From a virus, in IMG/VR virus record IMGVR_UViG_3300010885_028920, positions 1 to 49,322 of that record: a DNA stretch of 49,322 nucleotides. One strand, 5' to 3'. Below, one piece after another: positions 3,520 to 42,114 of the stretch (the stretch's first letter is position 1; each line of letters opens with the position of its first letter). The position numbers were made by a program, and so were the translations under genes. Below the pieces are notes generated by a model, which saw only the letters and a program-made list of their open reading frames with translations, made no database searches and was not told where the DNA came from.

Positions 3520-4408
3520 TAGTTTCTTATTCTTTAATGAACTTGATTTATTAGAGATTAGACTAAATATGGTTTATCCGGTGGTTGATCATATTATTAT
3601 TAGTGAATGTGATACCACGTTCTCAGGTTTAAAAAAACCATTTTACTTTGAAGAAAATAAGACACAGTTTGAGCCGTTTTTAGATAAAATTATACATATA
3701 AAACATATTAATGTTGATGATATTAATTTAGTTGAGACAAATTATCCTGATAAGGATAATCCTATGTTTCAAGAAATTATCACACATTATAAGAGAAATA
3801 TTCCTGAGTTTGGTGGATTACCTAATTGGTATAGAGATTTTTTACACCGAGAATTAGTAAAGATGGGTATGACAAATTGTGATGATGAGGATATTATCAT
3901 TTTTAGTGATTTAGATGAAATACCAAACCCTGAAAAGATTACAGAAATTTTGAACACTATGGATTTGGATAAGAATTATTGCTTACTAGGTGATTGTCAT
4001 AATTTTTATGTAAATAATGTTTGTCATACTAATTGGTATGGACCTGTAATCACTAAGTTTAAAAACATAAGAGGTAAATCAATCGGAGAATTTAGATTAC
4101 AAAGGTATAATTTTGAATTAATTCAGGACGCATCGTGGCATTTAAGTTTTGTTGGTGGGTCTGAGAGAATTAGAACTAAAATAGTTAGTTGGGGACATCA
4201 AGAATTTAATAACACGAGTATTTTAAATGGGGTTGATAGTAAATTATCAAATAATAGTGACCTGTTCAATAGAACAAACAATACGTATAACGATTCAATG
4301 CAAACATTCTTCTTTGAGAAAATGAAACCGATTGATATTAATGGTTATTATCCTGAAAATATTGTTAGACTGATTGAAGATAAGTTTCCTTATTTAGTTA
4401 AAAAATAA
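3506..4408 (+). CDS. GT17-family glycosyltransferase
   Basis: 300 residues. The start (MKVYDSFLFFNELDLLEIRL) and the central FSDLDEIPNP (about 133-142) match glycosyltransferase family 17, whose characterised eukaryotic members are beta-1,4-N-acetylglucosaminyltransferases; bacterial and viral members are mostly uncharacterised. The DLDE segment probably binds metal and the sugar nucleotide. It overlaps the preceding gene by 14 nt and is followed after 4 nt by the three-domain fusion gene. The linkage formed cannot be predicted. Confidence 0.75.
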   Translation: MKVYDSFLFFNELDLLEIRLNMVYPVVDHIIISECDTTFSGLKKPFYFEENKTQFEPFLDKIIHIKHINVDDINLVETNYPDKDNPMFQEIITHYKRNIPEFGGLPNWYRDFLHRELVKMGMTNCDDEDIIIFSDLDEIPNPEKITEILNTMDLDKNYCLLGDCHNFYVNNVCHTNWYGPVITKFKNIRGKSIGEFRLQRYNFELIQDASWHLSFVGGSERIRTKIVSWGHQEFNNTSILNGVDSKLSNNSDLFNRTNNTYNDSMQTFFFEKMKPIDINGYYPENIVRLIEDKFPYLVKK

Positions 4409-4412
4409 AAAT

Positions 4413-6989
4413 ATGAAAAAAATAGTAGTAATTGGTGGTTTAGGATATATTGGTACTGAACTTTGTAAACTTTTATCGGGTGAGTCTTGGTACTACAACA
4501 TCATCGTATATGACAACAGATTCATGTCCGACAAAGTAAAACAGATTAGGGAATGGGGAATGGATTTTATCCAAGGTTCTATTTTAGACGAAACTCTTTT
4601 ATCTAGTGTTTTAGAAAATGCAGATATAATTTATCATTTAGCAGGTATTACTGACGTGGCTTATACTAAAACCGAAAGTAATAAAGATAAAGATGATGAG
4701 ATAAAAAGAGTTGGTATTGATGGAACACGTAATGTTATCAAATATAGTCCTACCAAATCTAAGATAATCTTTCCTTCAACTCACGTAGTTTATGAAGGGT
4801 TTGAAACGGCCATGTTTGATTTAGATGAATCAGTTGAGACAACTCCTGTATTAACATATTCAACAGGTAAGGATATTTCCGAAAAAGATTTATTTTATTC
4901 TGATAAAAATTTCATAGTAGTTAGGTTATCATCAGTATATGGTTTATCAAGTGATACTATGAGAACCAATATCATGCCTAATCTATTTTCAAAAATAACC
5001 TCTCAAAATGGTATTATAAAATTATTTTCAGGTGGAGTACAAATTAAAAGTTTAGTTTCAGTATTTGATGTGGTTAGAGTAATGAAATTTTTATCTGAGT
5101 CCAAATACAACAGAGAAATTTTCCATATTTCCAAAGAAAATGTTACAATAAAGGATGTTGCGGAGATTTGTAAAAAAATAAACCCAAACGTCACTGTAAT
5201 TGAGACTGAGGATGAAATACCAAATTTGGGATATACTATCTCAAATAAAAAAATACTATCAACTGGTTTTGAATTTAAATATGATTTAGAAAACTGTATT
5301 AAAGATATGATCCTTGCTTGGTCTGAAAAGTCGTTACCTGAAGATTTAGAATATAAGATTAAGGGTGGTAAAGAGTTTATTGATGACCGAGGTAAAATAT
5401 CAAACTATGAACTAACCGAACCAATTAATTTAATTGGGTATATTGAATCTAAAAAAGGTACTGTTAGAGCCAACCACTATCATCCAGTACAAGAACAAAA
5501 ATGTCTTTTAATTAAAGGGAAATATGTTAGTGTGATTAAAGATTTAATGAATGAGGATTCAAAATTAGAAACAAGAATAATCAATGAAGGAGATATTGCC
5601 GTTATTAAACCTAACGTTGCACATACTATGGTGTTTCTTGAAGACTCTATTTTTCTTAATTTAGTTAGAGGTGAGAGAGAACATGAAAATTATGGAATAA
5701 CTCACACAATCCCATATACACTAGTTGATGAACAAATGAGACAGGATATTATCTCAAACTACTCATCTAATTGTCGTTCTTGTGGTAATCAAGAATTAAT
5801 GGATGTTGTTAGTCTAGGGTTATCCCCATTGGCTAATAATTTATTAGATAGTAAAGATTCTAGCTGTGAGACATATCCATTAGAAATGAAATATTGTCCA
5901 AATTGTCATAACTGTCAATTATCATATATTGTTGAGCCGTCAAAAATGTTTGACAATTATCTATATGTATCATCAACAACCGATTCATTTAAAAAACATT
6001 TTCAAAACGCGTCGTCTAAATACGTTGATATTTTTAACTTAAATGAAAAAAGTTTAGTATTAGATATAGGAAGTAATGATGGTATTGCTTTAAAACCATT
6101 TAAGGATTTAGGGATTGGGGTTATCGGGGTAGAACCCGCTAAAAATCTATCAAAACTAGCCAATGATAATGGTATTGAAACTATAAATTCATACTTTGAC
6201 GAATCAATAGTTCAAGAAATATTAAAAAATAAGGGAACTTGTGATATTGTTACAGCATCTAATGTTTTTGCACATTCAGATAAATTAAAAGATATTACTG
6301 AAAATGTTTTTAAACTATTAAAGGATGATGGTTCATTTATTATTGAGGTACAATATTTGTTAAATACTATAACTGATTTAACGTTTGATAACATTTACCA
6401 TGAACACGTCAATTATTGGTCATTCACATCAATATTTAATTTTTTCAGAAATATGGGTTTAATGGTTTATGATGTTGAGTGGATAAATACTCATGGTGGT
6501 TCTATACGTGTATATGTTACAAAGGACATTAAGGTTACTGAAGTAAGTAAAAATGTTCAGAATTTCTTAAACCGTGAAAAAGAAAACGGATTATTAGATT
6601 ATAATACCTATAAAGATTTCGGTAAAAAAATAAACACTTTAAGGTCAAACGTTATTAACAATTTCAAGAGACTAAAACAAAAATATAACATTATAGCTGG
6701 TTATGGATCACCCGCTAAAGCAACAACATCATTAAATTTCTTCAATATTAATCATAATTACATTGATTATATTATTGAGGATAATTCATTGAAAATAGGT
6801 AAGTATATACCTGGTGTTAATATACCGATTAAAGATAAGAATTATACTTATGAGAATTTACCAGGTATTGTAGTTGTTTTGGCTTGGAACTTCTTTGAAG
6901 AAATCGTTAAGAACAACGAACATTTAATAAAAATGGGAGTTAAATTTATAAACATAAAAGATTTACAAAATCCAAATTTTGAATTATGA
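4413..6989 (+). CDS. three-domain fusion: SDR epimerase + sugar-isomerase-like cupin + C-methyltransferase
   Basis: 858 residues in one uninterrupted frame. Residues 1-300 are an extended SDR nucleotide-sugar epimerase/dehydratase (GGLGYIG near the start). About 318-435 is a small cupin with HYHPVQEQ and HTMVF metal-site-like histidines, resembling the WxcM/FdtA and RmlC-like sugar-isomerase domains. About 450-858 is a deoxysugar C-methyltransferase: a four-Cys zinc site (CRSCG at 454 and CPNCHNC), the SAM motif VLDIGSNDG (about 549-557) and a YHEHVNYW segment typical of the TylC3/NovU family. Three steps on one NDP-sugar intermediate (ketosugar formation or epimerisation, isomerisation, C-methylation) would be channelled. 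Its overlap with the FkbM gene is 4 nt. Confidence 0.8.
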   Translation: MKKIVVIGGLGYIGTELCKLLSGESWYYNIIVYDNRFMSDKVKQIREWGMDFIQGSILDETLLSSVLENADIIYHLAGITDVAYTKTESNKDKDDEIKRVGIDGTRNVIKYSPTKSKIIFPSTHVVYEGFETAMFDLDESVETTPVLTYSTGKDISEKDLFYSDKNFIVVRLSSVYGLSSDTMRTNIMPNLFSKITSQNGIIKLFSGGVQIKSLVSVFDVVRVMKFLSESKYNREIFHISKENVTIKDVAEICKKINPNVTVIETEDEIPNLGYTISNKKILSTGFEFKYDLENCIKDMILAWSEKSLPEDLEYKIKGGKEFIDDRGKISNYELTEPINLIGYIESKKGTVRANHYHPVQEQKCLLIKGKYVSVIKDLMNEDSKLETRIINEGDIAVIKPNVAHTMVFLEDSIFLNLVRGEREHENYGITHTIPYTLVDEQMRQDIISNYSSNCRSCGNQELMDVVSLGLSPLANNLLDSKDSSCETYPLEMKYCPNCHNCQLSYIVEPSKMFDNYLYVSSTTDSFKKHFQNASSKYVDIFNLNEKSLVLDIGSNDGIALKPFKDLGIGVIGVEPAKNLSKLANDNGIETINSYFDESIVQEILKNKGTCDIVTASNVFAHSDKLKDITENVFKLLKDDGSFIIEVQYLLNTITDLTFDNIYHEHVNYWSFTSIFNFFRNMGLMVYDVEWINTHGGSIRVYVTKDIKVTEVSKNVQNFLNREKENGLLDYNTYKDFGKKINTLRSNVINNFKRLKQKYNIIAGYGSPAKATTSLNFFNINHNYIDYIIEDNSLKIGKYIPGVNIPIKDKNYTYENLPGIVVVLAWNFFEEIVKNNEHLIKMGVKFINIKDLQNPNFEL

Positions 6990-7645
6990 AAATTTCTGAA
7001 TTTTTAGAAAAAAATAAACAAGAATTTAAACCTTGGTTAGAGGATAATGACCAAGGAATGGTTGAATTAAAAATTTTAAAATATCTGACCGATATTGAAA
7101 ATGGTGTATTTGTTGAAGCGGGGGCTCACGACGGCTTATTTCAATCAAATACCAAAATACTTGAAGATTTGGGATGGAGAGGTGTGTTAATTGAACCTTC
7201 TGAAAGTGCCTACCAACAATGTATAAATAATAGAAAGTGTATTGTGGAACACGCAGCATTAGTTCCCTTTGATTTTCCTTATGATAAAATCAGAGGGAAT
7301 TTTGATGGGACCCCTCGTTCATCAGTCTTTGATGGGACAATGTATACAGTACCAGCCAAAACCCTTGATTCTATCTTAAAATCACATAACATAACAGAAG
7401 TTGATTTACTAACGTTAGACGTTGAGGGGTTTGAATTACAGGTTCTCAATGGTGTTAATTTTAATGACATTAATTTTAAATTTATGTTAATTGAGGTTAA
7501 TTCTAATTCTTATAGTTTAGAAACTTTAGAAAATTTCTTATTAGAAAAAGGTTATGTCAAGATTGCAAACATCTCAAACTTTACTTTTGAGAATACACCA
7601 GGATGGCCTGGGACACATCAAGATTATTTATTCAAAAAAATATGA
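6986..7645 (+). CDS. FkbM-family SAM-dependent methyltransferase
   Basis: 219 residues. Motif I FVEAGAHDG (about 41-50), an acidic IEPS after the second strand and LLTLDVEGFE (about 139-148) are diagnostic of the FkbM family, which O-methylates sugars or related hydroxyls using S-adenosylmethionine. It is internal to the glycan operon, overlapping the three-domain fusion gene by 4 nt and the next glycosyltransferase by 4 nt. It probably caps or decorates the glycan built by the neighbouring transferases; the hydroxyl modified is unknown. Confidence 0.8.
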   Translation: MKISEFLEKNKQEFKPWLEDNDQGMVELKILKYLTDIENGVFVEAGAHDGLFQSNTKILEDLGWRGVLIEPSESAYQQCINNRKCIVEHAALVPFDFPYDKIRGNFDGTPRSSVFDGTMYTVPAKTLDSILKSHNITEVDLLTLDVEGFELQVLNGVNFNDINFKFMLIEVNSNSYSLETLENFLLEKGYVKIANISNFTFENTPGWPGTHQDYLFKKI

Positions 7646-8616
7646 AATTATTAGACCCAACAATTATTAGAGATTTAGTTGATTATTCTTTTGGGGATCA
7701 ATCAAGTAATGTTCATAACTTATGGGATGGATATATGAACAAAGCAAACTCAACAAATCAAGATTTTCTATCTAAGTGTGAAATATTCAAAAACAATAAA
7801 TCAGTTATGACTCTTTTCATTGATAATATTAGATTATATAAAAGAGAAGGGATTAAATACACCAAGATTGAATTATCAAATGAGTCTTCAAAACAATATA
7901 AAGACAATAGAGTAAAAGAGTTGGGTGATCAAGATTTGTTATTTCTTTGTTCTACAATACCTGATGTTAAATTTATTATTTTCACAGGTTTTGAAGATAC
8001 TCAAATAGATGATGAAATCTTTGATAAAATCCCTGAAAATGTTTTAGCGGTTTATGCGTCCAACTCAATATCACATGGAGGTAAAGTAATTCCAATACCT
8101 TACGGAATACAAAGAAAACTTAATCCGTATGATATGAGACAAGATATCTTAAGTAATAATATTAATTCTAAGATTAATCCTGAGAAACTACTCTATATTA
8201 ACCATAATGTTAATACTAATCCGGAAAGAATATCCATTAATGAAAGATTCATTAATGAGCCTTGGGTTACAACTGAGACCCCTAAAAGTAGTAATCCTAA
8301 TGATTACCAAAATTATCTCAATAAAATTAAAAATCATAAATTTATGATTTGTCCTGATGGTAATGCTATAGGTTGTGAATGTCATCGTGATTGGGAAGTA
8401 ATTTATATGAGAAGAGTACCAATAGTAAAAGACTCTCCTTATTTACGTAAAATTTTTGAGGGTATTCCTGTGTTGTTTGTAAACTCTTTTTTAGATGTTA
8501 GTGAAGAACTATTATTAAATAATAATGATTTATATGAATCAATGCAAACTTTTGATTTGAATAGATTAGATTTTAATAAGATTTATTTTGATATTTTAAA
8601 AAAATTTTCAGTATGA
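7642..8616 (+). CDS. exostosin/GT47-like glycosyltransferase
   Basis: 324 residues from the ATG that overlaps the FkbM stop (ATGA); an upstream ATG at 7603 would overlap that gene by 43 nt and is less likely. The C-terminal half contains CPDGNAIGCECHRDWE (about 237-252) followed by a RRVPIVKDS segment and FEGIPVLFV. This is the GT-B donor-site pattern seen in exostosin-domain (GT47-like) proteins, where a conserved acidic residue precedes the strand of the donor pocket. The N-terminal part is not recognisable. Sugar specificity is unknown. Confidence 0.55.
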   Translation: MKLLDPTIIRDLVDYSFGDQSSNVHNLWDGYMNKANSTNQDFLSKCEIFKNNKSVMTLFIDNIRLYKREGIKYTKIELSNESSKQYKDNRVKELGDQDLLFLCSTIPDVKFIIFTGFEDTQIDDEIFDKIPENVLAVYASNSISHGGKVIPIPYGIQRKLNPYDMRQDILSNNINSKINPEKLLYINHNVNTNPERISINERFINEPWVTTETPKSSNPNDYQNYLNKIKNHKFMICPDGNAIGCECHRDWEVIYMRRVPIVKDSPYLRKIFEGIPVLFVNSFLDVSEELLLNNNDLYESMQTFDLNRLDFNKIYFDILKKFSV

Positions 8617-9581
8617 AAAAATGTTTAATAACAGGTATTAATGGACAGGACGGCTCATACCTTTCCGAATTTTTATTAAATAAGGGTTACGAGGTTCATG
8701 GCACACTTAAAAGAAATTCTGTTTCAGAAAATCAAACTTCAAGATTAGAAAATATATATGATCAGGTTAAGTTACATTATGGTGACTTAACTGATATGTC
8801 ATCACTTATATCTGTAATACAGAAAGTAATGCCGGATGAAATATATAACTTAGCTGCACAATCACACGTTAGAATATCATTTGATCAACCATTATACACT
8901 GCAAATGTAACAGGTATTGGTACTTTGAATTTATTAGAGGCGGTTAAACTTATAAAACCAGATACCAAAATATACCAAGCGTCGTCGTCAGAAATGTTTG
9001 GTAACTCGATAGATTCGGACGGATTTCAAAGAGAAACGACACCAATGAACCCTGTATCACCATACGGATGTGCTAAAGTATTCAGTTATAACATTTGTCG
9101 TAACTATAGAAACTCTTATGGAATGTTCATTTCAAATGGGATTTTGTTTAATCACGAATCACCAAGACGAGGGACTAACTTTGTAACAAATAAGGTATGT
9201 AAAGAAGCGGTTAAAATTAAATTGGGAATATCTAACGAATTAAAACTTGGTAATCTTGACGCAACTAGAGATTGGGGACATGCAAAAGATTATGTTAAAG
9301 CTATGTGGGAAATACTACAACTTGAACAACCCGATGATTTCGTTTGTTCAACAGGAATTTCACATTCAGTTAGAGAACTTTGTCAATATGTTTTTTCTAA
9401 GTTAGATTTAAATTGGTCTGATTATGTAAAACAAGATGAAAAATTTTTAAGACCTGAAGAATTGAATGACCTAAAAGGTGATTCGTCTAAATTAAAAAAC
9501 GCAACAGGTTGGATTCCTGATTATACTTTTGAGAGTATGTTAGATGAAATGATACAATATTGGTTAGAATATTATGGATGA
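8613..9581 (+). CDS. gmd: GDP-mannose 4,6-dehydratase
   Basis: 322 residues, close to the usual length for this enzyme. It converts GDP-D-mannose to GDP-4-keto-6-deoxymannose with bound NADP. Visible motifs: TGINGQDG (7-14, usually TGITGQDG), NLAAQSHV, SSSEMFG (about 124-130) with the catalytic Ser and Glu, YGCAK (151-155) with the catalytic Tyr and Lys, and NHESPRRG plus the RDWGHAKDYV segment, all near-diagnostic for Gmd. The next gene is GDP-fucose synthase, overlapping by 8 nt, so together they make GDP-L-fucose from GDP-mannose, which must come from the host. Confidence 0.95.
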   Translation: MKKCLITGINGQDGSYLSEFLLNKGYEVHGTLKRNSVSENQTSRLENIYDQVKLHYGDLTDMSSLISVIQKVMPDEIYNLAAQSHVRISFDQPLYTANVTGIGTLNLLEAVKLIKPDTKIYQASSSEMFGNSIDSDGFQRETTPMNPVSPYGCAKVFSYNICRNYRNSYGMFISNGILFNHESPRRGTNFVTNKVCKEAVKIKLGISNELKLGNLDATRDWGHAKDYVKAMWEILQLEQPDDFVCSTGISHSVRELCQYVFSKLDLNWSDYVKQDEKFLRPEELNDLKGDSSKLKNATGWIPDYTFESMLDEMIQYWLEYYG

Positions 9582-10479
9582 TGAAAAATTGTTAATTACC
9601 GGAAAAGGTCTTATTGGTTCTGAATTTGTGAATGAACAAAAAATAGGATCTGAATATGATTTAAGAAATAAGTCCGTATCTGATTTAGTTATTAGTCATT
9701 ATAATCCTGATTATGTTATACACACCGCAGGTAAGGTAGGTGGTTTAGGTGCTAATATGAATATGTTAGGTGAGTTCTTCTATGACAATATTATGATGAA
9801 CAGTAACATAATTGAAAGTTGTAGAAAATATAATGTAAAAAGACTAATATGTTTTTTATCAACATGTATATTCCCTGACAATGTTGAATACCCCCTAACC
9901 GAAGATAAAATCCAATTAGGACCTCCTCACCCATCTAATTTTGGTTATGCTTATGCTAAAAGAATGGTACAGGTTCAAATTGATGCCTATAATAAACAAT
10001 ATGGGACAAAATACTTTTCGGTTATACCTTGTAACGTATATGGACCTAACGATAACTATAATTTGGAAAATGGTCACGTAATTCCTTCCTTAATCCACAA
10101 AACATATTTAGCTAAGAAAAACAATACTGATTTAGTAATATGGGGTTCAGGTAACCCATTAAGAGAATTTATATATTCTAAGGACATTGCAAAAATTTGT
10201 ATGATCCTGATTGAAAAATATAATGAGTCTGAACCGATTATTTTATCCACATCACAAGAAATAACAATACGTGATGTAGTTGAAATGATTGTTGAAATAA
10301 TTGGATTTGAAGGTAATGTGATATACGATACTTCCAAACCTGATGGACAATATAGAAAACCATCTGACAACTCAAAACTTTTATCTATCATTGGTGATTT
10401 TGAATTCACACCATTAAGAACTGGTCTTGAAGAGACTATTGAGTTTTTTGTAAAAAACTATAATATTTTAAGAAAATAA
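9574..10479 (+). CDS. fcl: GDP-L-fucose synthase
   Basis: 301 residues. Bifunctional 3,5-epimerase and 4-reductase of the SDR family that finishes GDP-L-fucose synthesis. Motifs: GKGLIG nucleotide loop near the N terminus, AGKVGG (about 52-57, usually AAKVGG), STCIFP (about 96), YAYAK (about 125-129) and a GSGNPLREF segment, all characteristic of Fcl/WcaG. It begins inside gmd, as expected for consecutive enzymes. It is the last gene of the glycan block; phoH follows after 4 nt, so transcription probably continues. Confidence 0.93.
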   Translation: MDDEKLLITGKGLIGSEFVNEQKIGSEYDLRNKSVSDLVISHYNPDYVIHTAGKVGGLGANMNMLGEFFYDNIMMNSNIIESCRKYNVKRLICFLSTCIFPDNVEYPLTEDKIQLGPPHPSNFGYAYAKRMVQVQIDAYNKQYGTKYFSVIPCNVYGPNDNYNLENGHVIPSLIHKTYLAKKNNTDLVIWGSGNPLREFIYSKDIAKICMILIEKYNESEPIILSTSQEITIRDVVEMIVEIIGFEGNVIYDTSKPDGQYRKPSDNSKLLSIIGDFEFTPLRTGLEETIEFFVKNYNILRK

Positions 10480-14682: not shown

Positions 14683-14690
14683 ATATTTAT
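14683..14690 (+). promoter_or_regulatory. ATATTTAT motif (candidate late promoter)
   Basis: ATATTTAT 4 nt before the ATG of the gene at 14695, in the context CTAAATATTTATAG. One of about fifteen coding-strand copies in the window; the function is inferred from position. Confidence 0.5.
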
Positions 14691-14694
14691 AGTT

Positions 14695-18942: not shown

Positions 18943-18949
18943 TATTTAT
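18942..18949 (+). promoter_or_regulatory. ATATTTAT motif (candidate late promoter)
   Basis: TGATATTTATATG lies just after the stop of the gp5-like gene and 11 nt before the ATG at 18961. It is the only intergenic motif inside the tail block apart from those at 14683 and 15063. Confidence 0.5.
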
Positions 18950-18960
18950 ATGAAAAAGAT

Positions 18961-25059: not shown

Positions 25060-26922
25060 TTATCTCAATTCTCTCAAATCGAATGTTCTAACACCATCTA
25101 CGGTAATTCTGCCATAGAAGCGATTGTTCACCATCTTCTTCGCGTAACGAGTCATGATACCCTTGATAGGAGTAAAGTTAAATGGGTTATACATAGTTGG
25201 AGTTAATTGTAGAGGTACATATGGTGCGTAAACGTAACCAGTATCCAATAGAGAAGTACCTTTGTGACCCATCAACACTTGGTTTGCAGGGAAGTAAGGA
25301 TCTCTATACACTTGATAACGACCCGCTAATGTACCAACTCTTTCAATACCCATGTTGTACTGATCTTGCTCAGGAGCCGCGTTTGATACGTGGAAATACT
25401 CCAAATCGTCAAAGATAGCAGATACTTCAGAAGATACAACGATCCAGTTAGCACCACCTCTCAAAGTTGATTTGTGAATTTGAGCAGAGATTTGGTTAAT
25501 TGCAGTGATAAGAGTTTGATTCCAGTCCTTTTGAGTGTAAGGAGCAAACGAAGTTGAAGAAATTCTCTTCCAACCGTTATAATCCCATCTCAAATTCCAA
25601 GCAGCACCTTTTCTAAGGTCACGAAGAATTTCACGGTCAATTTCAGCAGCAACTTGTTCAGATAACAAAGCTGTCAATTCAGCTTCAGCATCGATGTTGT
25701 GGAAAGCCGCAACGTCTTGTGCCAATTCAGGAGACCATTGTGCTCTTAATTTTCTTTCAGTTACAGATACTGTTACAGAATCCAACTCGAAAGAAACTTC
25801 ACCAATTTTATCTTCAAATTCAAGTTCTTGGTAACGTCTGTAAACCGCTCTAAATGATGTGTTAATAGCTGTTTGTGAAGAGAAAGTCACACCTGTGTAA
25901 CCATCAAGAGAGTTAGCACCAAATGTTGCTGGTGATGTCAAATCAACTTCCAAATAGATAATACCATTTGCTGAAGCGATATTAAAGAATGACCCACCAT
26001 TACCAGGTGTATTTGTTGACAATGTATTGTTGTTAAAGTTTGTGGTCGTATTAGTACCATATTGAACAATACCTTTACCATATTGTTGTGTAACAACACG
26101 GAACAAGTAAGGATTATATTGGTTTGATGAAGTGAATGGGTTACCTGTAGAACCAACGATTCTTAAATCAGATAAGAAACTTTCAGTATCCATTTCTTGA
26201 CCATCAGGTCCAATCAATTTTCCATCACCAATATTAGAGAAACCTGACATACCAATGATTACTTTTTTGGTATTAGCATCAAAACCATAACCTGAAACCG
26301 CTAAATTACCATTACTATCCCAAGCAAATGTTGCAGTGTCCGCAGTTACCAAAAACCAAGGACCTTTTGAATAGTCAAATAAACCTGCAGGATCTAATCC
26401 AGGTTCAGTACCTTCATAAAATAAATCATAAAGATTCTTAGAATATGTGTTATTATAGTTACCAGCTCCAACAGTAGTGGTATAACCACCATTTGGATCA
26501 CCAGGATAGTTACCAGGAGAACCGATTGGTGGGATATGGTTTCCTGACTTAGCACCATTCTCCCAATAATTAGTACCACCAGAATAACCTTGGATTTTAG
26601 GTACGAAGTAGAACAATTTACCGATAGGTAAGTTCATCGCTTGTACAGAAACGATATCATTCGCCAACAACTTAGAGAATACACGTCTGATGATTGGAAA
26701 TACAACTGTCTCAAAAGAACCTGAATCCGCTGTTGTAGTTGATTCGTTAATTAAGAAAGATGCTTGGTTTTCGTATAATTGAGCCATATTTTCTTTTAAG
26801 TGGCCGCTCAAACCTTCAAGGAACCCAAGTTTGTTCCATTTGTTAATTGTATCTTCTTTGATAACTTTAAGGTGCTTAAGACCAATGTTACCAACAAGAC
26901 CGCTTTCTAATAATGCTCCCAT
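25060..26922 (-). CDS. 23: major capsid protein, T4 gp23-like
   Basis: 620 residues. HK97-fold capsid protein of the gp23 group. The N-terminal LKVIKEDTINKWNKLGFLEGLSG-type helix, MAQLYENQASFLINE and then VFPIIRRVFSKLLANDIVSVQAM align with gp23. At the C terminus, RYQVYRDPYFP, LMGHKGTS and YAPYVPLQLTPT are conserved capsid segments. The T4 protein is cleaved by gp21 after an Ile-x-Glu; here I-N-E60 followed by Ser is the likely site, leaving about 560 residues. It is longer than T4 gp23 because of a Gly/Asn-rich insertion around 110-300. Scaffold and protease genes lie directly upstream, as in T4. Confidence 0.95.
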   Translation of the reverse strand: MGALLESGLVGNIGLKHLKVIKEDTINKWNKLGFLEGLSGHLKENMAQLYENQASFLINESTTTADSGSFETVVFPIIRRVFSKLLANDIVSVQAMNLPIGKLFYFVPKIQGYSGGTNYWENGAKSGNHIPPIGSPGNYPGDPNGGYTTTVGAGNYNNTYSKNLYDLFYEGTEPGLDPAGLFDYSKGPWFLVTADTATFAWDSNGNLAVSGYGFDANTKKVIIGMSGFSNIGDGKLIGPDGQEMDTESFLSDLRIVGSTGNPFTSSNQYNPYLFRVVTQQYGKGIVQYGTNTTTNFNNNTLSTNTPGNGGSFFNIASANGIIYLEVDLTSPATFGANSLDGYTGVTFSSQTAINTSFRAVYRRYQELEFEDKIGEVSFELDSVTVSVTERKLRAQWSPELAQDVAAFHNIDAEAELTALLSEQVAAEIDREILRDLRKGAAWNLRWDYNGWKRISSTSFAPYTQKDWNQTLITAINQISAQIHKSTLRGGANWIVVSSEVSAIFDDLEYFHVSNAAPEQDQYNMGIERVGTLAGRYQVYRDPYFPANQVLMGHKGTSLLDTGYVYAPYVPLQLTPTMYNPFNFTPIKGIMTRYAKKMVNNRFYGRITVDGVRTFDLRELR

Positions 26923-28910: not shown

Positions 28911-29654
28911 TTACTTCCCCAAATAATGAGAAAGTTTTTTCATAAGGTCAAGTGATTTGTTCTCAAATGTTGAAGTATTTTCAGGTTGACCACTACGTTG
29001 TACTTTCATTCTGGTTTCCTCATCAAGATTTTCTTCAAAATTAAATCGATCTTCAGGTTTGGTAAATAAATAAGCACCTGGTGTTGATGGGGATGATACC
29101 AAATCAAAACAGATTAATTCAAAATCTTTTTGAACTTCATTCTGTTCTCCGACTTTTTTTAATGATCCGACACCTCTTGAGGATATACCCAATGTAACAC
29201 CTTGTCTTAACAAATTTGCCGCCTGATCTCCCTTAGTAGATACAATACCTCTTTCATGGAAACCTGGTGAGGTTAAAAGTTTAAGTTTACCTAAACAAAC
29301 ATGTCCATCCCACCATATCTCAGTAATTGCGTGTGATACACGATCAAGATCTATTAATGAAGATTCAGGGTGATTTAATTCAGATAATGCAGTTCCCTTA
29401 TTGATTGCCTTTTTATAGTTTTCAACTTCTCTTTTCAATATTTGTTCAGGATATATTCTACCATTTCTGTTAGGGGTATTATATTTTTGTAAAACAGCAT
29501 AAAATTCAAATGGTTTAGAATAATCTAACATATTGTTTGATTCTTCCAAAACTTTTCTGTTCATTCTATCTTGTGGGTCAATATATCCAGCATCCCACTC
29601 AACTAATATTCCTTTACCTATTTCGTTTGGTCCTAAAATTTTCATAGACATCAT
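28911..29654 (-). CDS. 21: prohead maturation protease, gp21-like
   Basis: 247 residues. Serine protease of the herpesvirus-assemblin-like prohead fold. The catalytic His is probably in ELNHPE (about 94) and the nucleophile in GISSRGVGS (about 157), with NRNGRIYP and FDLVSSPSTPGA as conserved flanking segments. It processes scaffold and capsid after assembly. Position upstream of the gp22 and gp23 homologues is as in T4. Start: ATG 29654, with alternative in-frame ATGs just after it. Confidence 0.9.
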   Translation of the reverse strand: MMSMKILGPNEIGKGILVEWDAGYIDPQDRMNRKVLEESNNMLDYSKPFEFYAVLQKYNTPNRNGRIYPEQILKREVENYKKAINKGTALSELNHPESSLIDLDRVSHAITEIWWDGHVCLGKLKLLTSPGFHERGIVSTKGDQAANLLRQGVTLGISSRGVGSLKKVGEQNEVQKDFELICFDLVSSPSTPGAYLFTKPEDRFNFEENLDEETRMKVQRSGQPENTSTFENKSLDLMKKLSHYLGK

Positions 29655-29660
29655 TTTGAT

Positions 29661-29668
29661 ATAAATAT
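29661..29668 (-). promoter_or_regulatory. ATATTTAT motif (candidate late promoter)
   Basis: Minus strand TTGATATATTTATATC, 6 nt before the protease ATG. Confidence 0.5.
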
Positions 29669-29669
29669 A

Positions 29670-30116
29670 TCAATATTCCATCTGTGGATCTTTTTTTGTT
29701 AATGAAAAATTAAAGTCCTTGGAATTTAAGAAACAATCAACGTATATTGCGTCAGAAATGTCTTTAATATTATTCTTAATACTTTGTTCTCTGAAATCCA
29801 TTATCTGAGTAGTGAATAATGTAATTTCCAAGTTTACAAAACTTTTCTTACCATAAGACAATCCACTTAACTTCACATCCAAATCAACAATAAATGTTTC
29901 TTTGAAAATTTTTTTATTGATGGTGTCAATAACAACCTGTTTTATGTTTCTTTCTAAGATTGTGATTTGTTTATTCCATTTTTCAAATTCTTTTTTTGGT
30001 AACAACCACGTTTGAAAATTGATGTAAATTGATTTTAATTCTTTTGAATCTACAGTGCCGTACGTAACTCTCGCATTCCTATACCCACTTAATTTAGAAG
30101 TTTTTCCCTTCTTCAT
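29670..30116 (-). CDS. hypothetical protein in the head cluster
   Basis: 148 residues, basic N terminus, mixed alpha/beta. No domain recognised. It ends 15 nt before the protease gene and starts from the left half of the palindromic ATAAATATTTAT element shared with the bS21 gene. A structural or assembly role is inferred only from location. Confidence 0.55.
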   Translation of the reverse strand: MKKGKTSKLSGYRNARVTYGTVDSKELKSIYINFQTWLLPKKEFEKWNKQITILERNIKQVVIDTINKKIFKETFIVDLDVKLSGLSYGKKSFVNLEITLFTTQIMDFREQSIKNNIKDISDAIYVDCFLNSKDFNFSLTKKDPQMEY

Positions 30117-30132
30117 TATTTAATAATATATT

Positions 30133-30144
30133 ATAAATATTTAT
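30133..30144. promoter_or_regulatory. palindromic ATAAATATTTAT between divergent genes
   Basis: A perfect 12-bp palindrome giving one ATATTTAT in each direction: 16 nt from the minus-strand gene at 30116, and about 41 nt before the bS21 ATG at 30186. It could drive both genes. Confidence 0.5.
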
Positions 30145-30185
30145 TTTTAAATAAATCTTAATACATAAAAGTTAAAAAGTCAAAA

Positions 30186-30374
30186 ATGATAATTATAGAC
30201 GTAACAAAATTTAAATCATTGGATAAAGCACTTAAACATTATAAGATGAAAGTGATAAAAACCAAACAAATGGATATTCTATATAATAATAGGGAATATG
30301 TTAAAAAATCTGTTAAACGAAGAGAAGAGATTATTAATGCTAAATATAAACAAAAAAAGAAGGACTTAGATTAA
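30186..30374 (+). CDS. rpsU: ribosomal protein bS21 homologue
   Basis: 62 residues. The order MIIIDVTKFKSLDKALKHYK, then YVKKSVKRREEIINAKY and a Lys-rich tail is the bS21 pattern (acidic start, I-D/E-K-A-L-K, S-V-[K/R]-RRxx). bS21 sits near the anti-Shine-Dalgarno helix of the 30S subunit. Phage-encoded bS21 is known from other large and marine phages. In Flavobacteria bS21 helps hide the anti-SD. Here the gene is the only + strand gene in the head cluster, bounded by the palindromic motif and a terminator, like a self-contained cassette. No SD precedes it. Confidence 0.8.
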   Translation: MIIIDVTKFKSLDKALKHYKMKVIKTKQMDILYNNREYVKKSVKRREEIINAKYKQKKKDLD

Positions 30375-30382
30375 AGTCCTTC
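30359..30382. terminator. bidirectional hairpin overlapping both stop codons
   Basis: GAAGGACTT (30359-30367) and AAGTCCTTC (30374-30382) around AGATTA, with an A run before it. Both convergent genes end in the loop region (TAA at 30372-30374 and at 30373-30371 on the other strand). Confidence 0.75.
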
Positions 30383-31069
30383 ATATAAATTTTGTAATTT
30401 TAAATAATTCAACCGATTAAAGGCTTCTTTCTCAACAGAATCGATAGTCTCATTAAGTTTTTGCTTAATCTCATTATCGTTATTTGTTAATATGTAATTC
30501 TTTAATTTAATGATGGTATTTTCTTTTAACACATCAAAATCACTTTTTAAGTCAAAATCTTTTTTAGAAAACACTTCATCTAATTGTTCTAAAGCCTCTG
30601 GTTCTAAACCATCAATATACTTTTCTAAATTATACTTAACAACATTCTCAATGAAAGGGGTGAAATTATTTTTTGTAACTTCTTTTGATTCTGTCATTAT
30701 TGACACCAATTCTTTTTTATTTTCAATATTTTCAGTTATCTTTAAAACATCATCATTTAATAAAGAATCCACTTTTTTATATTGATTTTCACAAACAACA
30801 TCTTTAACCCAATTTTTAAGATCTGTTAAAAACAAATGATTTTTTTTATTCTTAATCGTTTTAATACTTTCTTCCAAATACTCCTTTGCTATATCTGAAC
30901 TCATTCCTTGTTTTATTGTTAGATTGGAATATAAATAATAACACTCACTAAGCATCTTATTAGAAATTACAACTTTTTTAAAATTGTTAATTTCGGTGTT
31001 AAATGTTTGGTTGACGTATGACTCATTAAGTTTTTTCTCAACCTTTGAAAATAATAATCCTAGTTCCAT
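30371..31069 (-). CDS. hypothetical helical protein in the head cluster
   Basis: 232 residues, Lys/Asn/Glu-rich and almost entirely helical, no recognised domain. It lies between the portal and protease genes, where T4 has the small prohead core genes 67 and 68, so an internal core role is possible. Its stop overlaps that of the opposite-strand bS21 gene by 4 nt. Confidence 0.55.
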   Translation of the reverse strand: MELGLLFSKVEKKLNESYVNQTFNTEINNFKKVVISNKMLSECYYLYSNLTIKQGMSSDIAKEYLEESIKTIKNKKNHLFLTDLKNWVKDVVCENQYKKVDSLLNDDVLKITENIENKKELVSIMTESKEVTKNNFTPFIENVVKYNLEKYIDGLEPEALEQLDEVFSKKDFDLKSDFDVLKENTIIKLKNYILTNNDNEIKQKLNETIDSVEKEAFNRLNYLKLQNLYEGL

Positions 31070-31092: not shown

Positions 31093-32886
31093 TTATAAAT
31101 CCTTTAATAACTTATCAAACTCCTCATTTAGTGTTTCTATCGACTTATTTCCCTTACCTAAGTCAAAATATTCATCAACAGTTATGTTTGACTCAAAAAT
31201 TAGATTAAATTTTTTATCTATACTTGCGGTTTCTAAACCAGGTTCGGGTGCTCCGGGAGGTGGAGGTGGTGATAACGGTGGTTCACCTCCCATACCTTCA
31301 GGTGGTGATGGTGGTGTCTGTGCTTGTGTATCAGATGAAACAGGTCCTTCAGTATATAGTTTATCCAACGTATCAAATAGTCCGGTTTTCTTAATAACAT
31401 TAGGTGTATTCGTAAGCTCAGTGGATACTGCCTTCTCAATTCTTTGTTGTTGTAAATCCAATTTTATATCTTCATCAGAGAATCCAAGAATATGTTTCTT
31501 AGCCCAAGATACTGATGCTGGAGCAATACCCTCAATAGGTGTTACGGTATCTTTATATGCCATCAATTTTTCTTTCCAAACGTCAATCTTTAATAAGTCA
31601 GCTTGTGTTGATGGATTTGTTAAACTTAATGTAAAATTAGATAACTCGTCCTCAAATCCCAAAATAAATAAGTGAATGATTGCGATTTTATTAAGTTCTT
31701 GTAACATACTTTTTTGAATACGATTAATTGTTCTCGCAAATCTGATATCCAAAAGAGCCAAATCTTTACCATTACCAACAACTTCCTCAAACCCTAAAAA
31801 CGCTTTTGGGATTCTCAGTGCGGTAACAAGTTTCTTTTGAATGTATTCAATATCAGCAATCTCTGATAAGTTTTGAGCACCTTGTAGTGTATCAATTGGT
31901 GAAGCCTGTGCAACATCACGAACGGGGACGAAATAATCCTGATCGACAGCCATTTGATTGTACCTTAAATCAACGTTACCGGTTTGGTCATCAACAATTG
32001 GTTGTCTTTTGAACCTATTAGCAAAACGTTGTACGTATGGTTCAATATCAGCATCGTCCATATTACCAACAAAAACTTTAAATACACGTCTTTCTGGTGC
32101 TCTAGATGTTCTATAAATTAACATTGCATCCTCGGCCAATATAAGTTGTTTCCAAATCCTTCTAGCCTTTTCAAGCATTGACGTACCATATGGTAACTTC
32201 CTATCATCCCCTAATAATCTGAAGTGTGCAATTTCCCAAGTATTAAAATCTAAGTTTTTATTTTTCCAAGCAAATCTCATAGATTTCATTTCAGGGGCAC
32301 CCTCACCAACTCTTGGTCCCATGTACATACCTCGTTCTAAACGTTCAATTTCAATATTCGGTAATTGGAAATTACCAACAACTCCGTGTTCAGGATCCAA
32401 TTTCAAATAAACAAAATTATCTCCGTATTTGCAGGTATTTCTTGTCCACATAGCCAAATTTGTATTAATGTCCAATACGTTATTAAATAAATCGGCTAAT
32501 ATTGATTTAATTCTTTTTGATTCAGAATAAATTTGAAGAATATGTCCATTTTCATCTACAGTTGTTGATTCTTCGGCATAAATGTCTAGGGCTGCCGATA
32601 TCTCAGGAGTATATTCCATTGATTCATAATCATATGCCGCAGCCAATCTCGTGGGTCCATAATAAATTGATTGTTGATATAAATTGTTTTCAATTTTTGC
32701 CCAGTGGCCTGCCAAATATTTTGATTGTTTTGCTTGAAGTTTTTCTTTTTCATATTCCGTTTTATCGGTAGTTTTTAATAAAACTTCTTTGTCAAATTTA
32801 AATGTGGGATAATCATTATTAATTAATGAATCAGGTCCCATTGTTTTTGACAATCTCTGCCAAATTGTTAATTTTTTATTTTCCAT
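31093..32886 (-). CDS. 20: portal protein, T4 gp20-like
   Basis: 597 residues. The middle (YTPEISAALDIYAEESTT, RNTCKYGDNFVYL, AHFRLLGDDRKLPYGTSMLEKAR-type stretch, IYRTSRAPERRVF, LDIRFARTINRIQ) aligns with gp20 portal proteins. The portal forms the dodecameric DNA channel and starts head assembly. The C-terminal 80 residues hold a proline-rich acidic linker (PPSPPEGMGGEP then PPPPPG) absent from T4, then a helical tail. It follows the terminase gene after 36 nt. Confidence 0.93.
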   Translation of the reverse strand: MENKKLTIWQRLSKTMGPDSLINNDYPTFKFDKEVLLKTTDKTEYEKEKLQAKQSKYLAGHWAKIENNLYQQSIYYGPTRLAAAYDYESMEYTPEISAALDIYAEESTTVDENGHILQIYSESKRIKSILADLFNNVLDINTNLAMWTRNTCKYGDNFVYLKLDPEHGVVGNFQLPNIEIERLERGMYMGPRVGEGAPEMKSMRFAWKNKNLDFNTWEIAHFRLLGDDRKLPYGTSMLEKARRIWKQLILAEDAMLIYRTSRAPERRVFKVFVGNMDDADIEPYVQRFANRFKRQPIVDDQTGNVDLRYNQMAVDQDYFVPVRDVAQASPIDTLQGAQNLSEIADIEYIQKKLVTALRIPKAFLGFEEVVGNGKDLALLDIRFARTINRIQKSMLQELNKIAIIHLFILGFEDELSNFTLSLTNPSTQADLLKIDVWKEKLMAYKDTVTPIEGIAPASVSWAKKHILGFSDEDIKLDLQQQRIEKAVSTELTNTPNVIKKTGLFDTLDKLYTEGPVSSDTQAQTPPSPPEGMGGEPPLSPPPPPGAPEPGLETASIDKKFNLIFESNITVDEYFDLGKGNKSIETLNEEFDKLLKDL

Positions 32887-32922: not shown

Positions 32923-34689
32923 TTATCTTCCCATACCACCGAATAACCAATTATAATTTTGGTAATCCTGTTTTGTTGGTCCGTTTTTTCTTACGTGTTG
33001 TTGATTGTTAAAAGAGGGTGTTAAAGGATTAAAAAAATTATCTGTAACCATTGGACTTTCCGCAACTTGCCAAGCATCAATTAACGCTTTTGTTTGTTCG
33101 GTCACTTTTGTTAATGAAGAAAATGAATTTTCCCCAACATAAATAGCCATCGCCAATGACATCAATAAATCATCGTGTTGTCCTTTTTGGTGGTCAGCAC
33201 GACCATTAACATAAACAAATGTTCTCATCTCGTTTAGAAGACGATTACTTCTTATTTTATATCCGTGTCTAACCTTCTCCTCCAACGCACCGATAATTTG
33301 TTCTCTCTTACTATTAAAATTTAAACCAGGTACTTTGTTAGCCGCCTTTGGGTCAAACTTCCATCTGTTCTGATAATCAACACCATCAAAAAACAAATTT
33401 TTATATCCAAGTTCTTGTAGTTTTCTTGAGGTTGAAACCCCCATACCACCAGTAATATCAATTACAATAAATGCATCATACATATTACCCCACTTAAAAC
33501 ATATCTCAGCGGCAACATCAGGTGGTACTTTTCCGAGGTATTCCACAACCTGTTCTTGTTCGTCAAAATCAACGATTTGAAACGTTGTGAAGTCCTCACT
33601 ATCACCTCGTGACACATCAACCCCCATAATGTACTTATGACCCGGTATTGGGTCTTTCCAAACCCATAACGCACCACCCATCATCTTACCCGTGGGTTCC
33701 TGTAGTAAATTATTGTTTATTCTAGCAATATCTAATTGATCAAAAACGTTATCACCCGATCCCAAGAAGTTACATTCCAACTCTTGTGAAACTTTTCTTT
33801 TGTCAAATTTTAACTTCTTAACCATCTTCTCAAACCAATCTGAAGATGGGGAATAACCAGTTTTTAATAGATCTCGTATTTCTTCAAAATTTCTTTCATC
33901 AAATGGTATTGAGGAATAATCTATTAAGGTTTCCTTACCATACTCTTCTCTATTCAAAAAGTAATGGATTATATTTTCAGTCTTAACCAAATATAAATCT
34001 TTAGTATATCTCGGATCTTTCCACCATACCATTTCAGATATTTTGAAATCATTCATATTCTTGATTGCCTGGTCGTATATCTCATAATAAATTGGATCAA
34101 ATCCGTTAGGAGTTGAAATAACAATTACCTTACCCCCTGTGGATAAGGACGCCATACACGCAGCCCAAAAATCACCATCTGCTTCAATATACGCAGCCTC
34201 GTCAAATATCAATATAGTTGGGGTATAACCACGAAGTGCGTCCCTTGATGTTGCCACCGCTTTTACCTCACATCCGTTTGTTAATTTGAAATGTCTTTGT
34301 GAATTTTTTTCAGGGGAGAACCCAATACCAACCCAACTAGGCCATTGTTCAGTAAATCCTCTAACCTTATTTGCCATTTCAACCGCAGTATCTAACTTGT
34401 TTGCAATGATTAGAATTTTCTCAGGTTTTTGTTTCATTGCAAAAACCAATTTTTTACTTGCCCAAGCTGCGGTAACAGTTGATACCCCCGCCTGTCTATA
34501 CTTTAGTGCGATGTTTTCATTGTAGTTATCATAGTCATTTAATAAATTAACTTGATCAGGAAAACAATCCACAGGTACATATTTCTGAACCGTATTATCA
34601 TAAGTCTGTAAATACGATTTTAACGCATATGGTGTATCTTTCATACACCTTGCGTATTCTATTAAGATTTGCTCTTTTGTAAGTGCCAT
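32923..34689 (-). CDS. 17: terminase large subunit, gp17-like
   Basis: 588 residues. N-terminal packaging ATPase with an atypical Walker A KYRQAGVST (63-71) and Walker B ILIFDEA (about 159-165). The C-terminal RNase H-like nuclease has GVDVSRGD (about 355), VIDITGGMG and HDDLLMSLA (about 504) as catalytic acids. It cuts and pumps concatemeric DNA through the portal. An ATATTTAT motif lies 4 nt before the ATG. No small terminase gene is recognisable nearby. Confidence 0.95.
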   Translation of the reverse strand: MALTKEQILIEYARCMKDTPYALKSYLQTYDNTVQKYVPVDCFPDQVNLLNDYDNYNENIALKYRQAGVSTVTAAWASKKLVFAMKQKPEKILIIANKLDTAVEMANKVRGFTEQWPSWVGIGFSPEKNSQRHFKLTNGCEVKAVATSRDALRGYTPTILIFDEAAYIEADGDFWAACMASLSTGGKVIVISTPNGFDPIYYEIYDQAIKNMNDFKISEMVWWKDPRYTKDLYLVKTENIIHYFLNREEYGKETLIDYSSIPFDERNFEEIRDLLKTGYSPSSDWFEKMVKKLKFDKRKVSQELECNFLGSGDNVFDQLDIARINNNLLQEPTGKMMGGALWVWKDPIPGHKYIMGVDVSRGDSEDFTTFQIVDFDEQEQVVEYLGKVPPDVAAEICFKWGNMYDAFIVIDITGGMGVSTSRKLQELGYKNLFFDGVDYQNRWKFDPKAANKVPGLNFNSKREQIIGALEEKVRHGYKIRSNRLLNEMRTFVYVNGRADHQKGQHDDLLMSLAMAIYVGENSFSSLTKVTEQTKALIDAWQVAESPMVTDNFFNPLTPSFNNQQHVRKNGPTKQDYQNYNWLFGGMGR

Positions 34690-34693
34690 AACT

Positions 34694-34701
34694 ATAAATA
34701 T
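34694..34701 (-). promoter_or_regulatory. ATATTTAT motif (candidate late promoter)
   Basis: Minus strand TTAATATTTATAGTTATG: directly downstream of the terminator T run and 4 nt before the terminase ATG. Confidence 0.5.
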
Positions 34702-40045: not shown

Positions 40046-40076
40046 TTGGATAATTCAAAACGATGAATTACCTTTG
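40046..40076 (+). promoter_or_regulatory. Bacteroidota-type housekeeping promoter of clpC-like gene
   Basis: TTG (40046-40048), 20-nt spacer, TACCTTTG (40069-40076), then 16 nt to ATG 40093. An upstream in-frame ATG at 40063 lies within the promoter, so it is not the start. Confidence 0.75.
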
Positions 40077-40092
40077 TAAAAAATTCTTTTAT

Positions 40093-42114
40093 ATGACAGA
40101 ACATTTTGATGAAAACGATGGATTAGGAAAATCCAAATCAAAACAAACATCCGCATCTGAAACACCAGTGTTGGATAATTTTAGTAAAGATTTGATGAAA
40201 CTTGCATCGGAAGGAAAGTTAGATCCTGTGATCGGACGTGAGAGAGAAATTGATAGGATTGCTCAAATCTTATCAAGGAGAAAAAAGAACAACCCTATCA
40301 TTATTGGTGAACCAGGTTGTGGAAAAACCGCAATCGTTGAAGGTCTTGCAATGAAGATTTTTAAGGGTGAATGTCCGAGAAGTTTGTTAGACAAACGAAT
40401 TGTTCTTTTGGATTTAACATCAATTGTTGCAGGAACAAAATACCGAGGACAATTTGAAGAACGATTAAAAGTTATTTTGGAGGAAATCACCAATAACAAA
40501 AACATTGTAGTATTCATTGACGAAATTCATACATTAGTTGGTGCGGGAAACTCATCAGGATCTATGGACGCATCCAACATTTTCAAACCCGCACTCGCAA
40601 GAGGTGAATTACAATGTATTGGTGCAACAACATTGGATGAATACCGAACAAACTTTGAAAAGGATGGGGCGTTGGAAAGAAGATTTCAAAAGATTGTGGT
40701 AGATGCACCAAACAAAGATCAGACGTTAGAGATTCTAAAACAATCAAAGGACAAATATGAAGATTATCACAAGGTAATTTATTCAGATGAAATTTTGAAC
40801 TTGTGTGTAAATCTTGCGGATCGTTACATTACCGATCGTGAGTTTCCTGATAAAGCATTTGACATTCTTGATGAAGTGGGTGCAAAAAGTCAGATTGAAA
40901 TTAAGATGCCCGAAGCAATTGAAAAACTCAAAGACCAAGCCGTCGAAATCAAGAGATTAAAACAAAATGTTGTTAAACAACAAGATTATGAACAAGCGGC
41001 AGAACTTAGAGACCGAGAAAGAAAGATCATTTCCAAATTAGATGAAGAGAAGAAAAAATTTGAAGGTGAAATGAATTTACACAAGAAGGTTATCATCCCT
41101 GAACTTGTTTTGGAAGTTGTTTCCAATATGACCAAGATTCCGGTAAATAAACTTAACTTGGATGACAAGAATTCATTATTGAGTTTGGAAACCGATTTGT
41201 CTCAATCAGTTATTGGACAATCTGAGGCTGTTACCAAAATTGCAAAAGCAATTAGAAGAAATCGTCTTGGAATTAAAGACCCAAATCGTCCGATTGGATC
41301 ATTTATCTTCTTAGGTTCTACCGGTGTCGGAAAAACCCACTTAGCCAAACAATTGGCAAGACAGGTATTTGGATCACCTGACGCATTGATTAGAATCGAT
41401 ATGTCAGAATATCAAGAAAAACACACCATCTCAAAACTAATAGGTTCTCCTCCTGGTTATGTTGGACACGATGAAGGTGGTCAATTAACTGAACAAGTTA
41501 AAAATAAACCATATTCTGTAATCTTATTTGATGAAGTAGAAAAGGCAAATAAAGAAATCTTTAATACCTTACTTCAGATGTTAGATGAAGGACATTTGAC
41601 AGATAGTCTTGGAAGAAAGATCAATTTCAAAAATACATTGATCATTATGACAACCAATCTCGGAGCGAAGAAAGTACAAGAATTTGGAACAGGTATCGGT
41701 TTCTCAACCTCAACCTCAAGTAAATCAATGATTGATGAGAGAAAGAAAGATATCATCACCAAAGAACTTAAAAACTTCTTCTCACCTGAGTTCTTAAACC
41801 GAGTTGATGAAATGGTTGTCTTTAATTCTTTGAATCACGAAGATATTGTTAAAATTGTTGATGTTGAAATGAATAAATTGATTTCACGTCTTTTGGAGAT
41901 GAAATACAAATTCACATACGACACGTCAATCGTTGAGCATATCTCAAAAGTTGGTTACGATGAACAATACGGAGCAAGACCTCTAAAGAGAGCAATCCAA
42001 GATGAGATTGAAGACCTAATCTCAGAAGAAGTTTTGAAAGGTTCCGTCAAGGAGAATTCCAAATACAAACTAACCATCAAAGATGATCGGGTAACAATAA
42101 CAAAAGGACGATAA
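40093..42114 (+). CDS. ClpC-like Hsp100 unfoldase lacking the N domain
   Basis: 673 residues with two AAA+ modules. D1: Walker A GEPGCGKT (72-79), Walker B VVFIDEIHT (about 139). A UVR-like segment QQDYEQAAELRDRE (about 296-309) lies between modules, typical of ClpC. D2: GSTGVGKT (408-415), ILFDEVEKA (about 477), sensor-2 region YGARPLKRAIQ. The tripeptide IGF (about 534), in the ClpP-docking loop position, is present, so it could feed host ClpP. The usual N-terminal repeat domain (about 140 residues, adaptor binding) is missing; residues 1-45 are short and charged. No clpP is in the window. Host-type promoter and terminator make it a single-gene unit. Confidence 0.9.
   Translation: MTEHFDENDGLGKSKSKQTSASETPVLDNFSKDLMKLASEGKLDPVIGREREIDRIAQILSRRKKNNPIIIGEPGCGKTAIVEGLAMKIFKGECPRSLLDKRIVLLDLTSIVAGTKYRGQFEERLKVILEEITNNKNIVVFIDEIHTLVGAGNSSGSMDASNIFKPALARGELQCIGATTLDEYRTNFEKDGALERRFQKIVVDAPNKDQTLEILKQSKDKYEDYHKVIYSDEILNLCVNLADRYITDREFPDKAFDILDEVGAKSQIEIKMPEAIEKLKDQAVEIKRLKQNVVKQQDYEQAAELRDRERKIISKLDEEKKKFEGEMNLHKKVIIPELVLEVVSNMTKIPVNKLNLDDKNSLLSLETDLSQSVIGQSEAVTKIAKAIRRNRLGIKDPNRPIGSFIFLGSTGVGKTHLAKQLARQVFGSPDALIRIDMSEYQEKHTISKLIGSPPGYVGHDEGGQLTEQVKNKPYSVILFDEVEKANKEIFNTLLQMLDEGHLTDSLGRKINFKNTLIIMTTNLGAKKVQEFGTGIGFSTSTSSKSMIDERKKDIITKELKNFFSPEFLNRVDEMVVFNSLNHEDIVKIVDVEMNKLISRLLEMKYKFTYDTSIVEHISKVGYDEQYGARPLKRAIQDEIEDLISEEVLKGSVKENSKYKLTIKDDRVTITKGR

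Follow-up and report, generated by a model that had tools for sequence, protein, structure and literature searches.

Why should a phage keep a single ribosomal protein gene, pointing against all of its neighbors, in the middle of its head genes, and what might the protein do to the ribosomes of the host? No ribosomal protein is found in phages more often than bS21, and in Flavobacterium its occupancy decides whether ribosomes read Shine-Dalgarno (SD) sequences, which essentially rpsU alone uses. Here, we analyzed a virus record of 49,322 nucleotides (49 kb) with a GC content of 31%, referred to below as the window. The reading that we put forward, at what we judge to be even chances, is that phage bS21 replaces host bS21, keeps the anti-Shine-Dalgarno (ASD) sequence sequestered, and lowers translation of host rpsU. 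The phage copies lack the rpsU signal, and the prediction is that phage bS21 lowers host rpsU translation while SD-less mRNAs are unaffected.

All called genes between positions 23330 and 40058 lie on the minus strand, with bS21 as the sole exception. The relevant features are as follows.

25060 to 26922, minus strand: T4-like gp23 major capsid protein.
28911 to 29654, minus strand: T4-like gp21 prohead protease.
29670 to 30116, minus strand: hypothetical 148-aa gene, divergent neighbor of bS21, present in relatives (35 to 43% identity outside the close clade).
30132 to 30139, minus strand: TATTTATA, a late-promoter-like head-gene motif facing the divergent gene 29670-30116.
30138 to 30145, plus strand: TATTTATT, a copy of the head-gene motif facing bS21, 48 nt before its ATG.
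30186 to 30374, plus strand: phage bS21 gene (62 aa), identified by Pfam and alignment, with Tyr54 kept and R33/R35/P41 changed to Y/N/K.
30359 to 30382, no strand assigned: hairpin of 9 pairs spanning the bS21 stop codon, from folding against shuffles and covariation.
30371 to 31069, minus strand: hypothetical 232-aa gene converging on bS21 with a 4-nt overlap, present in relatives (26 to 31% identity outside the close clade).
31093 to 32886, minus strand: T4-like gp20 portal.
32923 to 34689, minus strand: T4-like gp17 large terminase (TerL), with TATTTATA 11 nt before its ATG.

An earlier note on this DNA had described a bS21 gene inverted inside the head operon, and this is borne out by a Pfam match over the cut-off, by the plus-strand position amid minus-strand genes, and by the recurrence of the inverted gene at the same place: of the 51 viral relatives that the bS21 has, 47 show it. 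As far as their contigs reach, these 47 also share the two flanking hypothetical genes, and their bS21 sits among genes for the portal, terminase, protease, and capsid. TerL of the window clade is 57 to 60% identical to that of most other cassette phages found here. Four phage contigs (L040, L041, L046, and L050) carry a related bS21 without the head-gene cassette and without the stop-codon hairpin. Introns or insertions in head genes are suggested for three others (L042, L043, and L167 [LR756508]), where the matches to portal, protease, and terminase are incomplete or fall into separated pieces. Elsewhere in the window, a run of sugar epimerase, glycosyltransferase, and methyltransferase genes (26 to 10479) probably relates to surface polysaccharide, and no tRNA genes were found. 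Past the head region, the plus strand encodes a large Clp-type ATP-dependent protease ATPase (40063 to 42114; E value of 9.9e-240 to phrog_4871). Removal of host bS21 by a phage protease is raised as a speculation by McNutt et al. 2023 (PMC9976891).

The host is probably a member of the Bacteroidota. The observations that bear on this are that the bS21 is closest to that of Flavobacterium johnsoniae, that Flavobacterium phage immuto, as well as a Microcystis phage, is among the isolates closest in capsid and terminase, and that the genes lack SD sequences.

The 62-aa product (translation, MIIIDVTKFKSLDKALKHYKMKVIKTKQMDILYNNREYVKKSVKRREEIINAKYKQKKKDLD) matches Pfam PF01165 (Ribosomal_S21) with 34.3 bits (E value of 1.9e-8; cut-off, 27), residues 4 to 56 aligning with positions 2 to 54 of the 55-position profile. 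The nearest solved structure is F. johnsoniae bS21 (7jil chain z). An AlphaFold2 model with a mean pLDDT of 88 predicts two helices, at residues 12 to 35 and 41 to 61, the architecture expected of bS21; a Foldseek search of the PDB with this model gave no match, which is uninformative for such a short helical protein. The aromatic residue that stacks on the ASD is present as Tyr54 at the correct place in the alignment, and all phage relatives listed have Y, F, or H there. In a tree with 45 Bacteroidota host sequences, the phage proteins group together in a single clade, although with 62 residues the tree is indicative only. The host relatives were found with the F. johnsoniae sequence as the query, whereas a genome scan with the phage alignment had found none.

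Three positions set the window lineage apart. The window bS21 and that of relative L003 have Y33, N35, and K41 in place of R33, R35, and P41, while among the 70 other sequences of the tree set, position 33 is R or K and position 35 is R in all, and position 41 is P in 67. Likewise, R33 and R35 are present throughout 113 host loci, apart from one K at position 33; K41 is also found in three hosts. The arginine pair is a feature observed here and has not been published as a defining one, so that Y33 and N35 give no ground for excluding the two proteins from the ASD-sequestering type. Still, with R33, R35, and P41 lost, normal ribosome binding by bS21 of the window lineage is not to be assumed. 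Despite this loss the gene is under purifying selection, as judged from a dN/dS ratio (omega) of 0.17 between the window and L003 sequences, which are 85% identical.

The upstream gap holds candidate promoter-type elements. TATTTAT occurs upstream of 14 of the 55 window genes (expected, 2.2, by k-mer counting). When near-identical upstream sequences of the relatives are collapsed to one, TATTTATA precedes TerL in 10 of 10, the gp21 protease in 11 of 11, and the portal in 9 of 11 cases, where fewer than one is expected for each. It is never present upstream of the capsid gene in relatives; the capsid gene has an A-rich leader only. Sites of the motif include window positions 14684 to 14691, 18943 to 18950, 29660 to 29667, and 34693 to 34700, and L166 has it as well. 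In most relatives, 3 nt separate it from the ATG of the TerL and portal genes; if it works in a -10 register, the TerL and portal mRNAs would be nearly leaderless.

Upstream of bS21, TATTTATA and TATTTATT are overlapping back-to-back copies of this phage-wide motif, and the arrangement is significant. The palindromic promoter-like element claimed earlier thus stands as two motif copies, but not as an RNA fold, which in this AT-rich gap is no better than chance against shuffles (z, 0.35). In L003, the copy facing bS21 is intact and the opposite copy is not. Within one mismatch, the motif is found upstream of bS21 in 14 of 15 relatives (expected, 7.0), and exactly in 2 of 15. We also considered a T4 late promoter, TATAAATA, facing bS21. 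This candidate was rejected: the sense-strand motif of head genes in the window and its relatives is TATTTATA, and TATAAATA on the plus strand therefore belongs to the divergent gene. A second element, TAnnTTTG, which is the -7 box of Flavobacterium sigmaA (PMC9723704), is located at -25/-26 upstream of bS21 in 8 of 15 relatives (expected, 0.6). At the other head genes tested it is not beyond chance, two h436 cases excepted, and it is missing upstream of bS21 in the window clade. Taken at the sequence level, the bS21 cassette would appear to have promoter-type elements of its own, a sigmaA-like box in those 8 relatives and a TATTTATA-type copy in the window. Most relatives (L008 to L049) also have a conserved TTTATGGTGT element, possibly a regulatory site, in the gap between the 148-aa gene and bS21; it is missing from the window clade.

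At the other end of the gene, the hairpin at 30359 to 30382 outfolds all 200 shuffles on either strand. In relatives, three pairs change on both sides and 96% of cells pair, compared with 88% in shuffles; slid controls of the covariation fail. For this comparison, both arms were excised and placed manually, as the MAFFT alignment had misplaced the right arm. The hairpin is flanked by T-rich tracts on both strands in most relatives, whereas the window has a T-run on the minus strand only, which argues that its main role here is to end transcription of the converging gene 30371-31069. The terminator of the earlier note is thus real as a structure, but in the window it serves mainly the opposing gene. 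The left arm consists of the last codons of bS21, and the conserved C terminus that Chen et al. (PMC9723584) described may therefore be due in part to the hairpin; conservation purely as a protein feature is partly questioned by the covariation. On the other hand, the bS21 proteins of Flavobacteriaceae end similarly to the phage ones (e.g., KDGLES).

Phage bS21 and Flavobacterium rpsU genes differ in their start regions. Pairing was computed between AUCACCUCCUUUCU, which we take to be the 16S tail sequence, and a stretch of 22 nt that stops 2 nt short of the start. All 80 Flavobacterium rpsU genes pair at -18.4 to -22.8 kcal/mol, a very strong extended SD, whereas 29 distinct phage bS21 genes range from -4.7 at best to +2.6 kcal/mol and none has an extended SD. 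With -13 kcal/mol as the limit below which a gene was assigned to the extended-SD autoregulated rpsU type, the window gene, at -1.0, falls outside it. In a class-wide sample beyond Flavobacterium, 8 of the 30 additional host loci fall below this limit (11 of 33 with L133 to L135, which belong to genomes that the Flavobacterium-type set already contains), in agreement with the published statement that the extended SD is missing from some orders.

The claim that almost all phage genes lack an SD was also confirmed. None of 42 window genes pairs at -7 kcal/mol or lower (mock regions, 6 of 42), and 53 of 55 starts are without any SD word; the corresponding numbers are 1 of 108 for genes of relatives (mock, 4) and 2 of 145 for host genes. 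Since phage genes are generally SD-less, the absence at bS21 need not have been selected there. It is the phage default, and the point of weight is that the gene has no copy of the host control element. In other words, the missing extended SD is consistent with escape from host feedback but is no proof of selection for it.

As described by McNutt et al. 2023 (PMC9976891), F. johnsoniae rpsU is translated via its extended SD and autoregulated by ribosomes lacking bS21. These ribosomes prefer SD-bearing mRNAs and are poorer on SD-less ones, and bS21 is a late-joining, exchangeable subunit. On this basis, phage bS21, produced from a separate transcription unit next to the head genes, would take the place of host bS21 on the 30S platform of a Bacteroidota ribosome. 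Like the host protein, it would keep the 16S 3' tail bound in the bS21/bS18/bS6 pocket, giving SD-blind ribosomes, which would suit the SD-less phage mRNAs. Its own translation would be outside host feedback because the gene has no extended SD. Since it is ribosomes lacking bS21 that boost rpsU translation, ribosomes filled with the phage protein would turn host rpsU down, and in the late phase replacement of host by phage bS21 could become self-reinforcing. The stronger version, in which phage bS21 naturally overrides the specialized-ribosome rpsU circuit, escaping feedback, silencing host rpsU, and progressively converting the ribosomes, is tentative and on balance doubtful.

This qualifies the proposal of the earlier note that the phage supplies bS21 to keep ribosomes SD-independent. 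Given that bS21-less F. johnsoniae ribosomes favor SD mRNAs (PMC9976891), a supplied bS21 would have that effect, and the SD-less phage genes and Tyr54 fit it. SD-blind ribosomes would, however, give the phage no advantage over host mRNAs, because host genes lack SD sequences as well; the sole host gene predicted to lose is rpsU. Nor would rpsU repression apply in every host, as a strong rpsU SD is found in only part of the class. Several further observations count against the preferred reading: the loss of R33, R35, and P41, the mostly inexact late-motif copy at bS21, the absence of TAnnTTTG in the window clade, and the drop to about 5% activity that the sole phage bS21 tested caused in E. 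coli ribosomes (PMC6375957).

Possibly, phage bS21 makes the ribosome prefer phage over host mRNAs through changed residues on the mRNA side, as suggested by Chen et al. 2022. The N-terminal helix does differ between phage and host proteins (PMC9723584), the phage clade stands apart from the hosts, and the window lineage has changed further at positions 33, 35, and 41. Yet start regions are SD-less in phage and host alike, and no signal by which mRNAs could be told apart was found in them here. Moreover, head genes carry either TATTTATA or, for the capsid gene, the A-rich leader, so that late-gene mRNAs share no common tag. We consider this explanation unlikely. Alternatively, extra bS21 might serve simply to finish 30S assembly at its last step while late translation is heavy, and rpsU would not be regulated by it. 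The late-joining and exchangeable nature of bS21 (PMC9976891) and the late expression of relatives (PMC9723584) would fit, and the missing SD at bS21 may be a mere phage default. But rpsU translation in F. johnsoniae is tied to bS21 occupancy, according to the biochemistry in PMC9976891, so even a plain supplement of a Tyr54-bearing protein should affect rpsU, and we regard this account as decidedly improbable.

Conceivably, phage bS21 could also be a late inhibitor of host translation or ribosome assembly that is incorporated but poorly active, in line with the loss of the near-invariant R33 and R35 in the window lineage and with the drop of E. coli in vitro translation to about 5% caused by a pelagiphage bS21 (PMC6375957). 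That assay was done in a distant host, late phage genes still need translation, and purifying selection acts on Tyr54 and the remainder of the protein; we therefore see very little room for this explanation. Finally, a chance or decaying ORF or a functionless host fragment, as its small size (62 aa), AT richness, and two lost near-invariant arginines might suggest, has practically no chance of being correct in view of the Pfam match, the conserved place in 47 of 51 relatives, and the omega of 0.17, the conservation already contradicting it.

The window and its bS21 gene can be set beside four known systems. Flavobacterium phage immuto (NC_055915) has a syntenic T4-like head module and shares TATTTAT, the TATTTATA motif, which stands before several of its genes, TerL and portal among them, farther from the ATG than in the relatives. 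Unlike the window, it lacks bS21, and single-sequence search detected nothing in it that is homologous to either of the two flanking hypothetical genes. The bS21 of pelagiphage HTVC008M is likewise phage encoded and enters E. coli ribosomes (Mizuno et al. 2019, PMC6375957); the low activity that results could reflect incompatibility or inhibition. It differs from the window gene in its alphaproteobacterial host and acquisition and has no link to ASD sequestration.

Flavobacterium rpsU, as presented by McNutt et al. 2023 (PMC9976891), encodes the same protein with the same ASD-stacking Tyr54. It has an extended SD and the phage gene does not, so the phage gene cannot be under that feedback. Exchange of bS21 by phages appears in that paper as a speculation, and in the passages covered we found no test of phage genes.

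The closest parallel is provided by the 47 genomes of Bacteroidetes-infecting myophages with a reverse-strand bS21 among TerL, portal, protease, and major capsid protein genes described by Chen et al. 2022 (PMC9723584). In these, bS21 is flanked by two hypothetical families, is expressed with late genes, and has an aromatic residue at position 54 (Tyr54 conserved). Replacement of host bS21 was already proposed there, and with both the arrangement and the substitution hypothesis in that paper, our core observation is not new. The window is probably a further member of this phage group, in a somewhat separate clade; close similarity to the group would call for about 70% or more in TerL, and against most other cassette phages found here the identity is 57 to 60%. 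It shares the inverted bS21 between two hypothetical genes in the TerL/portal/protease/capsid region, Tyr54, a similar GC content (31% versus 31.0 to 33.7%), and PhoH, sugar/LPS-type, and Clp-type ATPase genes, and it differs in a bS21 without R33, R35, and P41. That paper mentions neither a promoter, a terminator, nor the missing extended SD of phage bS21. To this picture our analysis adds the missing extended SD compared with host rpsU, the candidate promoter-type elements, the covarying hairpin, and the loss of R33, R35, and P41 under purifying selection.
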